DNA from: Nitrospirales bacterium | GTDB lineage: Bacteria > Nitrospirota > Nitrospiria > Nitrospirales > UBA8639 | Assembly: GCA_007570995.1 (NCBI GenBank) | Contig: RKSG01000062.1 | Span: 1-32,761 of the forward strand | DNA: 32,761 nucleotides | Direction of reading: 5' to 3' | Part shown: positions 27,306 to 32,687 of the stretch, piece after piece | Numbering within the stretch: the stretch's first letter is position 1 | Layout of the letters: the number at the start of each line of letters is the position of its first letter | Made by a program: the position numbers and the translations under genes | Notes under the pieces: generated by a model | Seen by the model: the letters and a program-made list of their open reading frames with translations, nothing else | Told to the model about the DNA's origin: nothing | Database searches by the model: none

Positions 27306-28706
27306 TCAGCCAATCATGATCCGGGATTCCGGAAACCGGGACCGGGGCGGGGTTGTGGTGTGGATGGCAAACAGGCCAAGCAGGAGCGGGCCGAAACGAC
27401 CCAGGAGCATGGAGACGATAATCACCACCTTGCCAAAATCGGTGAGCAGAGCGGACAGGCTCCGTCCGGCTCCATCCCCGAGGGACATCCCAACGATGCC
27501 CATAGCGGACGTGACTTCAAACATGATACTGAGAAACGGGGACTGTTCCGTGAACGTGAGGGCCAGGGTGAACACGGTGATGGTGGTGAACGCCAGGATG
27601 CAGAGGCAAAACGCGCGGACCACCAGCTCTTTTGAAATTCTCCTGTGGAAGATCTCGACGTCATGCCGGCGGCGGAGCACGGCCCAGATCGTCAACCAGA
27701 TAATGGCGAAGGTCGTGGTCTTGATGCCCCCCGACATGCTGCCGGGTGAGCCGCCAATGGTCATCAGAAGCAGCAGAAAATACAGGGTGGCGTCGTTCAT
27801 CATGCTGAGATCCATGGTCGTGAAGCCTGCCGTGCGGGCCATCGTCTGAAAATGTGCTACGGCCAGTCGTTCACCCATGCCCAGGGGTTGCAACGTGCGT
27901 GGATTGTTCCACTCCAGGACGGTGATGCCCACGGTACCCGATGCAAGAATGAGCAGGGTGACCACGACCACGATTTTTGTGTGCGTCTGGAGCCGGAAAC
28001 GTTTGCCTTTGATATTGTCCCACGTGTCTTGAAAGACCAGAAACCCAATGCTACCCAGGATGACCAGGACGGTTACGATGATATTGATGGGCACGTCCAT
28101 CCGATACGACGCGAGACTGTCGGTGAACAAGGCAAACCCGGCGTTATTGAAGGCTGAAACGGCATGAAAGACCCCGGAATAGAGGGCATCGCCCCACGCC
28201 ATATCCTGTGCAAACCGTAGGGTGAGCAACAGGGTGCCCATGCCTTCCAGCGACAGGGTGGCGAGGGCCACGATTTTGACATAGCGTACCGATCCCTCCA
28301 TATCAAACGTGCTCAACGTTTCGGCCAGCATCATCCGGTCCCGTAGTCCGATCCGATGTCCCAGAGCCAGCAGAATGATGGTGGCCAGCAAGGCGTACCC
28401 CAAGCCGCCGATTTGGATGAGCAGGAGAATGATCGTTTGTCCAAAGGTGGTGAACTCGTGGGGGGTGTCCAGCACAATCAACCCGGTCACGCATACGGCC
28501 GAGGTGGCGGTGAACAAGGCGTCGATAAACCGTATGTCCACGCTCTCCGGGGTGGAAAACGGGAGCATGAGGAGTCCCGCGCCAATGAAGATCAAGGTTG
28601 CTGCGGCTGACGCCACCACCTGCCCCGGCAATAATCGAATGGACGCCAGCCGGCTGAGCAATGAGGGCCGATCCGTGTAGGCCTGGTCACGCACTGCCAT
28701 CGGCAC
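27306..28706 (-). CDS. TrkH/KtrB family potassium uptake protein
   Basis: 466 aa; FIDALFTATSAVCVTGLIVLDT, AVSAFNNAGFALF, MTIGGSPGSMSGGIKTTTFAI, MFEVTSAMGIVGMSLG match the four K+ selectivity P-loops. Confidence 0.94.
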   Translation of the reverse strand: MPMAVRDQAYTDRPSLLSRLASIRLLPGQVVASAAATLIFIGAGLLMLPFSTPESVDIRFIDALFTATSAVCVTGLIVLDTPHEFTTFGQTIILLLIQIGGLGYALLATIILLALGHRIGLRDRMMLAETLSTFDMEGSVRYVKIVALATLSLEGMGTLLLTLRFAQDMAWGDALYSGVFHAVSAFNNAGFALFTDSLASYRMDVPINIIVTVLVILGSIGFLVFQDTWDNIKGKRFRLQTHTKIVVVVTLLILASGTVGITVLEWNNPRTLQPLGMGERLAVAHFQTMARTAGFTTMDLSMMNDATLYFLLLLMTIGGSPGSMSGGIKTTTFAIIWLTIWAVLRRRHDVEIFHRRISKELVVRAFCLCILAFTTITVFTLALTFTEQSPFLSIMFEVTSAMGIVGMSLGDGAGRSLSALLTDFGKVVIIVSMLLGRFGPLLLGLFAIHTTTPPRSRFPESRIMIG

Positions 28707-28792
28707 GATCCTGCAAGGGGTTCATGGTGTGGCCGAACACGCGGCGGTCATGGGTCATACATCCCGGCTGCGGGGCGGAAGAGCGGGTGGTG

Positions 28793-29203
28793 TCAACAGG
28801 GCTGCCCGTTGAACAGACAGGGCTTGTAGCGGCTGGCGTCGAACTCGACGTTTTCCTGATAGACCAGTTCGTTGCCGTTCACGCCATCCTGTTCGGGGTC
28901 GTTCCACATCGTGTGATTCCACCAGTAGAACAGAGGATAGGTTTCAAAATAGTACACGGGGTTCCCATAGGCGCTTTGCCGATGCTCCCAGACTTTTCTG
29001 CCCACCACGTAATCCACGTCGTCGGTTCCCTGCAGAGAATACAAGAACAGAATCAAGCGCGTTTCCTGATCGAAAATTTCCTCCACCCGGGTGTCTTCGT
29101 CCGGCTCACTGGGCAGGAGAAACTGCGCCCGGCTCGGGCTGGCAAGAGGATGACTCAGCAACAATACAAGGACGAGTGGGACAATCCGAACAGGATGGAT
29201 CAT
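28793..29203 (-). CDS. Hypothetical secreted protein
   Basis: Start at MIHPVRIVPLVLVLLLSHPLASPSRAQF (signal peptide) within the longer ORF 28793..29281; no family recognised. Confidence 0.65.
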   Translation of the reverse strand: MIHPVRIVPLVLVLLLSHPLASPSRAQFLLPSEPDEDTRVEEIFDQETRLILFLYSLQGTDDVDYVVGRKVWEHRQSAYGNPVYYFETYPLFYWWNHTMWNDPEQDGVNGNELVYQENVEFDASRYKPCLFNGQPC

Positions 29204-29393
29204 ATGGTGTGTCTCATCACGGCCAAGCCATGGGCTCACACGACTCTCAAACATTCTACGCCGACCTGCTCCTGTCGGCAATGCGTTTTTGGGGATTTTC
29301 CCACACGTGGCGGAAGATGCTCCCGCGGGAAGCTTCTGGAAGGCAACACAGCGATTCTCCCGTAGAAACCGGGCTGTGGCAACATGGTCGCAG

Positions 29394-29423
29394 TTGTCGT
29401 CCGGTGCGCCTGTCCCCTATAAT
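29394..29423 (+). promoter_or_regulatory. Candidate promoter for mtaB-miaB
   Basis: TTGTCG - 18 bp - TATAAT (perfect -10 at 29418-29423), about 14 bp before the tandem repeat. Confidence 0.45.
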
Positions 29424-29436
29424 GTGCCACCCGTCG

Positions 29437-29579
29437 GGGACTAAGTTGGGACTAAGCCGGGATCAAGTTGGGACTAAGCCGGGACTAAGTTGGGACTAAG
29501 CCGGGACTAAGCCGGGACTAAGCCGGGACTAAGTTGGGACTAAGCCGGGACTAAGTTGGGACTAAGCCGGGACTAAGTT
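29437..29579 (+). repeat. 11-bp tandem repeat, 13 units, GGGACTAAG(TT/CC)
   Basis: Units in order end in TT,CC,TT,CC,TT,CC,CC,CC,TT,CC,TT,CC,TT; only unit 3 (GGGATCAAGTT) departs from the core. 13 x 11 = 143 bp with no gaps. Confidence 0.98.
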
Positions 29580-29628
29580 GTATGCCTGTCTCCTGTCAGG
29601 CACCATCCCCCGGGGAGGGCCAGGGTAC

Positions 29629-31014
29629 ATGAACCAACACGTCACATTATACACGGTTGGCTGCCGTCTCAATCAATCAGAGACCGCTGTCTTAGCCGAC
29701 AGGCTGACGGGCATGGGCTACCGGAAGGTGGCCTATGGAGAGCCCACCGATGTGCTGATCGTGAATACCTGCACCGTGACGGACAGTGCCGAGGCTGACT
29801 GTCGCCGGGTCATCCGTCGAACACTGCGACATTCTCCTCAGGCGTTTGTGGCGGTGACGGGCTGTTACGCGCAAACCGGAGTCGCCATTCTGCAGAACAT
29901 TCCGGGGGTGGATCTCGTGCTGGGGAACCAGTACAAAATGCTGTTGCCGGACTATGTGCAAAAGCTGTCTCGTATGCACAAACGTGCAGTGCCGTTGATC
30001 CGGCATTCCGGCGTGATCGACAGGGACGATTTTGTGCAGGACGGGGTTGGGGCCTACTCGACGACGCGCGCCAATGTGAAAATCCAGGATGGCTGCAATT
30101 TCATGTGTGCCTTTTGCCTGATTCCATTTGCCAGAGGGCGTGAACGAAGCCGGTTGATCGAGGATGCAATACGGGAAGCCGAGCACCTCGTGGAACGAGG
30201 GCATCGGGAGCTTGTCCTGACCGGTGTGAATATCGGGCAATTCTCGAATGGTTCCGCGGGGTTGCTCGACCTGATCCGGCGGTTGGAGCCCATTCCCGGC
30301 CTGGCGCGTATACGCATTTCCTCCATTGAGCCGACAACCATCCCTGACGCGCTGCTTGACTATATGCGCACCTCTGGAAAGCTGTGCCATTTTCTCCATG
30401 TTCCCCTGCAAAGCGGGGATGATGCCGTGTTGTCGGCAATGAATCGTCGCTACTCCGTACGTGAGTACGTGGCATGGGTGGAACGCGCCGTGCGCATGAT
30501 TCCGGATCTCTGCGTGGGGACCGACGTGCTCGTGGGATTTCCCGGAGAAACGGAACATCAGTTTGCCGAAACCTGCAGGGTGATCCAGGATCTGCCGCTG
30601 GCCTATGCCCATGTCTTCAGTTATTCCGCTCGTCCGGGGACGCAGGCCGTTCGTACAGGCCACCCCGTGCCTCCGTCACCAACGATCAAAGCCCGGAATC
30701 ACAGGATCACACAACTGTCCCGAGCCAAACGCATGCAGTTCTATCGGCAGTTTCTCGATCAGGAACGTCTGGTGCTGTTTGAATCCATGGACAGGGAGAA
30801 GATGTTCTGGACAGGCATGACGGATAATTTTATTCGTGTGGGCGTCTCCCATTCCAGCCGTCTGGCCAATCAGATCAGGCCGGTCAGACTGACCGGGACC
30901 ACGGAACACATGGTCCTGGGGCACGTGATGGATGCCACGCCGTCACAGCCACGGAAGCCATCCATTCCAGTCCTGCCGTCTTATGAACCTGCAGCCGGTG
31001 TGACATGTCCCTGA
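29629..31014 (+). CDS. mtaB: tRNA t6A37 methylthiotransferase MtaB-like
   Basis: MNQHVTLYTVGCRLNQSETAVLADRL, VNTCTVTDSAEADCRRVIRR, radical-SAM CNFMCAFCLIPFARGRERSR, ELVLTGVNIGQF, HVPLQSGDDAVLSAMNRRY; start at Met inside the longer ORF 29578..31014. Confidence 0.93.
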   Translation: MNQHVTLYTVGCRLNQSETAVLADRLTGMGYRKVAYGEPTDVLIVNTCTVTDSAEADCRRVIRRTLRHSPQAFVAVTGCYAQTGVAILQNIPGVDLVLGNQYKMLLPDYVQKLSRMHKRAVPLIRHSGVIDRDDFVQDGVGAYSTTRANVKIQDGCNFMCAFCLIPFARGRERSRLIEDAIREAEHLVERGHRELVLTGVNIGQFSNGSAGLLDLIRRLEPIPGLARIRISSIEPTTIPDALLDYMRTSGKLCHFLHVPLQSGDDAVLSAMNRRYSVREYVAWVERAVRMIPDLCVGTDVLVGFPGETEHQFAETCRVIQDLPLAYAHVFSYSARPGTQAVRTGHPVPPSPTIKARNHRITQLSRAKRMQFYRQFLDQERLVLFESMDREKMFWTGMTDNFIRVGVSHSSRLANQIRPVRLTGTTEHMVLGHVMDATPSQPRKPSIPVLPSYEPAAGVTCP

Positions 31015-31037
31015 CCAACATTCCCGGAGACAGTCCC

Positions 31038-32375
31038 ATGCCCTACCGCGTCTATATTCAGACGTTCGGATGCCAGATGAATGAGTATGATACCGAACTG
31101 GTACGGTCTCTGTTACGGGACCGCGGATTTGCATTGACTCCGAACCAGGATCAGGCCGATGTGCTGTTGATGAATACCTGCGCGATCCGGGAAAACGCCC
31201 ATGCTCGCGTCTACGGCCATCTGGCCAGTTGGAAAGCCATGAAACAGGTCCGTCGTGTGGTGATTGGCGTGTTGGGGTGCATGGCCCAGAATCTCAAAAA
31301 GGAATTACTGGATACGCATCCCGTCATTGACGTGCTCGCGGGACCGGACGCCTATCGGCACTTGCCCGATTTGCTGGTCCATGCCCTGGAACGCCAGGAA
31401 CAGGCCATGGCTGTGGATTTGTCCGAATACGAGACCTACGACGCGATTCTTCCGGAGCGCAAGCCTGGCGTCAATGCGTGGATTGCCATCATGAGAGGGT
31501 GTGATAATTTTTGCAGTTTCTGCGTGGTGCCCTACACGCGCGGCAGAGAACGGTCGCGTCCCGCGCGGGGTATTCTGGAGGAAGCGCACACCCTCGCGGC
31601 GCGGGGGTACAAGCAGGTCACGCTCCTGGGGCAGAACGTCAATTCGTATGGCAGTCCCGACCATGATGGTTACGATTTTGCCAGGCTGCTTTCAGCTGTC
31701 GCTGATGTGCCTGGCATCGAACGGGTGCGATTTACGTCTCCCCATCCCAAGGACTTTCCTCCCGCCCTCCTGGACGTGGTGGCCCATCACCCTCGCGTCT
31801 GTCGGCACATTCACCTTCCGCTGCAATCGGGTAACGACCGGATTCTCACCATGATGGGCCGGTCGTATACGCGAAATACCTATCGGGACCTGGTCGCGGC
31901 GATCAGGAAACGGGGCGACATCGCCCTCAGCACAGACATCATTGCGGGGTTCTGTACAGAGACGGACGAGGCGTTTTCTGACACGTATGAGCTTGTACGG
32001 GAGATCGAATTTCAATCGGCCTATGTGTTCAAATATTCGGAACGCAAGCACACCATTGCCTGGCGGAAATTTCCGGATGACGTGCCCGACGCCGTCAAAT
32101 CGGATCGGGTCACACGCCTGTTCGATCTTCAGCGAAGGATTTCCGCCGGGCACAATCGGCGGTTGATTGGCTCCGAAGTGACCGTGCTGGTTGAGGGTCA
32201 CGCGAAAAAATCTTCGCAACAGTGGATGGGGCATACGGACAGTAACGTGACCGTGGTCTGGGACAAATCGGCGGCGCCGCTTGCCGTCGGAGACCGGGTG
32301 ACGATTCGGGTGGATGATGCCTCAGCCTCGACGCTCTTTGGCACCCCCGTGACTTCCCTCGTGCCGGTCGTCTGA
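31038..32375 (+). CDS. miaB: tRNA-2-methylthio-N6-dimethylallyladenosine synthase MiaB
   Basis: MPYRVYIQTFGCQMNEYDTELV, LMNTCAIRENAHARVYGHL, GCDNFCSFCVVPYTRGRERSRP, VTLLGQNVNSYG, HLPLQSGNDRILTMMGRSYTR. Confidence 0.96.
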   Translation: MPYRVYIQTFGCQMNEYDTELVRSLLRDRGFALTPNQDQADVLLMNTCAIRENAHARVYGHLASWKAMKQVRRVVIGVLGCMAQNLKKELLDTHPVIDVLAGPDAYRHLPDLLVHALERQEQAMAVDLSEYETYDAILPERKPGVNAWIAIMRGCDNFCSFCVVPYTRGRERSRPARGILEEAHTLAARGYKQVTLLGQNVNSYGSPDHDGYDFARLLSAVADVPGIERVRFTSPHPKDFPPALLDVVAHHPRVCRHIHLPLQSGNDRILTMMGRSYTRNTYRDLVAAIRKRGDIALSTDIIAGFCTETDEAFSDTYELVREIEFQSAYVFKYSERKHTIAWRKFPDDVPDAVKSDRVTRLFDLQRRISAGHNRRLIGSEVTVLVEGHAKKSSQQWMGHTDSNVTVVWDKSAAPLAVGDRVTIRVDDASASTLFGTPVTSLVPVV

Positions 32376-32549: not shown

Positions 32550-32687
32550 TCTTATTCTCAATCCCCTTTCCATTTCAAAGTTTTCAAAGTATTAAAAATT
32601 TTAAAATTATTATTAAAATCAAGTAGACTTATCATTTCTTCTTATTTAGATTAACAGCAATCGATCATTAAATTTAGAAAGGTGATA

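Follow-up and report, generated by a model that had tools for sequence, protein, structure and literature searches.

A 13-copy, 11-bp tandem repeat between a conserved promoter and mtaB in a Nitrospirales bacterium

The mtaB-miaB gene pair of a Nitrospirales bacterium is preceded by a run of 11-bp direct repeats that fills most of the distance between a promoter and the mtaB start codon. This location raises the question of whether the repeats are a by-product of DNA amplification in a tolerant place or an element that acts on the expression of the two genes, through RNA or through a DNA-binding protein. The window (the whole 32,761-nucleotide stretch of DNA that was analyzed) is one contig of a 1.98-Mb MAG in 186 contigs, and the features on which the argument depends are as follows.

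28793–29203, − strand: divergent 136-aa ORF that flanks the intergenic region opposite mtaB (from the ORF list; start chosen at an internal ATG)
29394–29399, + strand: −35-like TTGTCG, 18 bp before the −10; a TTGTSG/TTGTCC-18-TATAAT (or TATACT) arrangement is found in 12 of 13 congeners
29418–29423, + strand: −10 hexamer TATAAT of the mtaB promoter, conserved in congeners and 205 nt before the ATG in the window
29437–29579, + strand: array of 13 11-bp units, GGGACTAAG plus TT or CC (read-out and TRF; one locus in the genome)
29583–29602, + strand: 6-bp hairpin UGCCUG..CAGGCA in the leader, 3' of the array, predicted in both the MFE and the centroid structures
29612–29619, + strand: putative Shine-Dalgarno-like GGGGAGGG, read directly (GGAGG, 10 nt before the ATG)
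29629–31014, + strand: mtaB, tRNA (t6A37-C2) methylthiotransferase (NCBIfam TIGR01579 equivalog, 380.9 bits against a cut-off of 357)
31005–32375, + strand: miaB, tRNA (i6A37-C2) methylthiotransferase (ORF list; TIGR01574 equivalog, 449.4 bits against a cut-off of 355); the ORF overlaps the end of mtaB, and the miaB start may be an internal ATG

Structure and position of the array

The array consists of 13 contiguous 11-bp units without gaps, and both a direct read-out of the sequence and a script reproduced exactly the arrangement of units and TT/CC endings given in the original prediction. The endings of units 1 to 13 run T C T C T C C C T C T C T. Only unit 3 deviates, reading GGGATCAAG (GGGATCAAGTT); the 9-bp core is kept in the other 12 of the 13 units, where variation is confined to positions 10 and 11, and the 9-mer is followed by C or T in every unit of the window. 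TRF called the array both as 12.8 copies of 11 bp (score 198) and as 6.5 copies of 22 bp (score 260). The score of 260 compares with a maximum of 63 in 200 dinucleotide-shuffled windows, and the pair pattern, with up to 3 mismatches allowed, has an expectation of 0.02 per shuffled window. The order of endings had also been singled out as symmetric about its center. It is indeed palindromic, but the symmetry is unremarkable because, of the 66 ways to interrupt an alternating 13-mer with two phase breaks, 6 give a palindromic order.

The array is non-coding in every frame, as had been proposed. On the + strand a TAA occurs in each unit except unit 3, on the − strand a TAG or TGA occurs in every unit, and no frame in the ORF list crosses the repeats. 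With every frame closed, a coding repeat was rejected; a CRISPR array was rejected as well, the units being contiguous and spacers absent. Because the source is a fragmented MAG, 13 copies may be an assembly value. A more radical version of this concern holds that short-read metagenome assembly generated the number of copies, or even the array in its regular form, and it draws on the 186 contigs of the MAG and on an array length (143 bp) near that of short reads. However, the array has internal anchors in the non-trivial order of its TT and CC endings and in its distinct third unit, and the sequences on either side correspond to the orthologous promoter and gene, so we find an artefact barely credible.

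The array is located between the divergent 136-aa ORF, for which an NCBIfam search gave no match, and mtaB. It begins 13 nt past the −10 and accounts for 143 of the 205 nt between the −10 and the ATG. The corresponding region was located via mtaB in 13 congeners, recorded as Nitrospirales/Nitrospira MAGs. In 12 of these, a −35 of the TTG(TGG/TCG/TCC) type and a TATA(A/C)T hexamer, separated by an 18-bp spacer, lie 22–40 nt upstream of the mtaB start codon. In G008, the thirteenth, TATAAT occurs 28 nt ahead of the ATG but is not accompanied by a −35 of this kind. Because these orthologous promoters are conserved 22–40 nt before mtaB without an array, the comparison argues both for placing the repeats in the leader and for their gain in this lineage. 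The original prediction had put the array in the mtaB leader, and the conserved promoter, with the array wedged between its −10 and the mtaB ATG, supports this placement: the repeats would be transcribed, from a start predicted near position 29430.

Two other repeats were noted. G008 carries a different 11-bp repeat, AATAAAATTCC, in about 4.5 copies upstream of its mtaB −10 (L107 / L195:95-160), and the window itself contains a short AT-rich 18-bp tandem duplication at 32577–32612, close to the contig end.

Distribution among bacteria and origin of the array

The original prediction had called for a genome-wide search for such arrays, and in this genome the pair pattern was found at the mtaB locus only. 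The exact pair pattern was absent from the 13 congeners and from other relatives, where the few matches at 2 mismatches were single pairs, and a three-unit pattern (up to 3 mismatches) matched no other genome among the 396 Nitrospirota sampled. Nor did exact pairs occur in the 246 Planctomycetota and 289 Verrucomicrobiota genomes scanned. Since the array occurs once here and in no other of the 396 Nitrospirota genomes, it was taken as a lineage-specific gain. Single copies of GGGACTAAG are not enriched in the 455 kb of this genome that were sampled (1 against about 3.5 expected), and a genome-wide regulon motif was rejected on these grounds. In a literature search for the unit and its complement, none of the papers listed made relevant use of either sequence.

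The tandem-repeat content of the genus was compared in sampled stretches, which for this genome amounted to 455 kb. TRF arrays numbered 97 per Mb here, 363 in the closest congener (G002), 32 in G010, and 42 in G008. Counting only short arrays outside long open frames, there were 6 in 455 kb here against 2 in 400 kb of G010. Repeat richness is therefore supporting rather than decisive, because the excess is small once arrays in long open frames are excluded. In the sampled stretches of G000, many scattered arrays are composed of a palindromic repeat resembling GGATTCCTGCGNNCGCAGGAATGACGG (for example L163:1787-1879, L147:3561-3801, L171:11260-11612).

We consider it probable that the array is a lineage-specific, non-coding minisatellite that grew by slippage inside the 5' UTR of mtaB-miaB, with any effect on expression being incidental. 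An 11-bp segment just past the transcription start would have been duplicated, one copy would have gained the TT/CC difference, and slipped-strand mispairing or unequal recombination would have multiplied first the 22-bp dimer and later the array. Transcripts initiated at the conserved promoter would run through the array and so have a leader of about 200 nt instead of about 20–30 nt. The array would be tolerated because it contains no open frame and disturbs no initiation signal, and its influence on mtaB/miaB output would be quantitative and incidental. Slippage and amplification typically leave near-identical units with a higher-order period, here of 22 bp, and this pattern favors such an origin, as do the lack of an array in congeners with 22–40 nt leaders, its restriction to one locus here, and its absence from other Nitrospirota. 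Against it stand the retention of the 9-bp core in nearly all units and the recurrence of that core at 11-bp spacing in nine viral neighborhoods (described below), neither of which neutral slippage predicts. If the array is a plain minisatellite, it provides a clean case of repeat growth in a 5' UTR, with the insertion site fixed by orthologous promoters, and the locus could be used as a strain marker.

Candidate roles and recurrence in viral contigs

An alternative to incidental growth is that the repeated GGGA acts in the RNA, either as a sponge or site for an RNA-binding protein (of the CsrA type, which would use GGA) or by forming G-quadruplexes that throttle translation. The 13 evenly spaced GGGA motifs on the transcribed strand are what such an element would offer. 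However, csrA (PF02599) is absent from all 14 genus genomes, whereas the control searches of E. coli, B. subtilis, and T. maritima were positive, and a CsrA sponge or CsrA-regulated leader was rejected for a genus that lacks csrA. G4Hunter gave 0.62 for the array and a maximum of 0.92 in 25-nt windows, and G-quadruplexes were rejected on these values. The predicted fold of the leader RNA is not stable and is no better than that of shuffled sequences (z of 0.85 and −0.36), and Rfam covariance models gave no match at E ≤ 1 in 28700–31100; a structured leader or known RNA was rejected accordingly. Taken together, the evidence makes a role of the repeats as an RNA element very unlikely.

The unit recurs in viral contigs. 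Scans of such contigs found GGGACTAAGYY pairs in 27 and GGGACTAAG-NN-GGGACTAAG in 55, and the similarity of the array surroundings divides the 55 into nine independent neighborhoods (37, 7, 3, 2, and 2 contigs and four singles). With any spacing of 10–39 bp, the number rises to 99. Among the viral loci examined, spacings of 11 bp (55 contigs) and 21 bp (24 contigs) dominate, all 55 contigs with the 11-bp spacing having also been brought in by the exact-pair scan. C or T directly follows the 9-mer in all fully readable copies of the first 27 viral contigs, and the same holds for the exact copies of a single representative taken from each neighborhood. Arrays of the largest group occupy a constant position within a divergent control region, approximately 300–400 bp from a small-terminase-like ORF; in the second group the array follows a 655-aa primase/helicase-like ORF and adjoins an AT-rich palindromic stretch, these ORF names being a reading of the sequences without a family search. 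Compared by protein with the nearest phage isolates, the primase of the main group reaches at most 46% (to Pelagibacter and Roseobacter phages) and terminase and portal about 20–27%, and for this reason no host was assigned to the viral groups. BLAST of the array against plasmids and phages, and of the viral array regions against phages, found nothing, although the low-complexity filter may have masked the repeats in both searches.

As an observation in its own right, the GGGACTAAGY repeats that these unrelated viral neighborhoods (contigs L214-L240 and L242-L269) carry at spacings of 11 and 21 bp are apparently undescribed. Two other viral contigs (L280:5257-5292 and L281:3040-3075) contain four head-to-tail copies of GGGACTAAG spaced 9 bp apart, next to related repeats of the GTAACTAAG type.

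The weight of this recurrence depends on the controls. Four other 11-bp-spaced patterns were found in 1, 2, 1, and 4 viral contigs; the first of these (1 contig) used the stricter YY form, in which the unit itself was found in 27. A natural 12-bp unit from a congener, also used as a control, was found in 40 viral contigs, a count to which coding repeats may contribute because the period is divisible by three. With a natural control at this level, finding a repeat unit again among viral contigs is not in itself rare. The sharing between phages and the array is suggestive but is not proof of a common binding protein, because natural repeat units recur for other reasons, and no formal probability is attached to it since it was noticed after the scan.

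The viral data bear most directly on the proposal that GGGACTAAGY is the predicted site of a DNA-binding protein, presented in direct repeats spaced by roughly one turn of the helix. Thirteen such sites past the transcription start could serve as an operator or a roadblock, repressing mtaB-miaB or tuning its expression, and the same protein family would serve the phages that carry 2–7 copies in their control regions. The excess of the unit over the four other 11-bp-spaced patterns, the concentration of viral spacings at 11 and 21 bp, the C or T shared by viral copies and window units, and the fixed place in the largest viral group are consistent with this reading. It is weakened by the 40 contigs of the natural 12-bp control, by the absence of the motif from the Planctomycetota, Verrucomicrobiota, and other Nitrospirota sampled, by the lack of a second locus in this genome, and by a cognate protein that is still only putative. 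The row of protein-binding sites envisaged in the original prediction thus gained some indirect backing from the spacing of the 9-mer in viral contigs. A conserved core with a free linker and helical spacing in independent viral loci has to be set beside a single locus in the window genome and mixed controls, and we regard a binding-site array as a minority possibility, clearly less probable than a minisatellite. A site common to the array and the phages is possible. The more specific proposal, that an undescribed DNA-binding protein recognizes GGGACTAAGY spaced at 11 bp in the control regions of several unrelated groups of marine and freshwater phages and that the 13 copies are an operator or decoy at mtaB-miaB, seems somewhat less likely still. 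Should the phage link be real, it would point to an uncharacterized binding motif common to several environmental phage groups and one bacterium.

Gain or loss of units by slippage might also change the length or spacing of the leader and hence mtaB-miaB expression in subpopulations. The array lies between promoter and start codon, and the leader repeats of uspA1 and uspA2 are described in PMC4679880 as altering expression with copy number. Two near-identical viral contigs, with five units in L267 (3489–3541) and four in L269 (4636–4677; motif-strand coordinates), suggest that the copy number of the unit is mutable, but their one-copy difference may be either a natural change or a difference in assembly. 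The target here is a housekeeping tRNA-modification gene, not a surface antigen, and the predicted structure is not special. A leader that varies expression in this way appears improbable to us, and growth of a minisatellite with incidental effects is the reading we prefer.

Comparison with known repeat systems

Operators of the OmpR/PhoB type and the iterons of phages and plasmids consist of direct repeats about 11 bp apart that present their sites on one face of the helix. The array shares this spacing of direct repeats but differs in having 13 copies, in lying downstream of the −10, and in having no adjoining regulator or replication gene. No known box has the sequence of the array.

Other parallels come from repeats in leaders. 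Marine Beggiatoaceae carry direct repeats of the heptamer TAACTGA upstream of start codons, and PMC4679880 gives 169 sets in one genome, of 2–6 copies and mostly directly upstream of starts. Like these heptamers, the array is made of short direct repeats in a leader, has stops in all frames, and has a patchy taxonomic distribution; unlike them, it is one 13-copy set approximately 50 nt upstream of the start. In Moraxella catarrhalis, AGAT repeats are located in the 5' UTR of uspA2 (Attia and Hansen 2006, as cited in PMC4679880). The mtaB array likewise lies between promoter and start codon, with the start site here a predicted one, but its unit is 11 rather than 4 bp and its target is a housekeeping tRNA-modification operon. 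Effects have been measured for the leader arrays of uspA1 and uspA2; for the mtaB array, variability and an effect are both hypothetical.

Long simple sequence repeats with units of 5–11 bp (LSSR5-11) have been described as a class (Mrazek et al. 2007, as cited in PMC4679880). Two properties set the array apart from them, namely the two-state dinucleotide ending that generates a 22-bp higher-order unit and a core that matches a motif recurring in viral contigs. In common with the class, the array has head-to-tail units within the 5–11-bp range, here of 11 bp, is non-coding with a period that is not a multiple of three, extends far beyond chance length, and is specific to a single lineage. LSSR5-11 are the closest described kind, and the array fits them on every testable feature.
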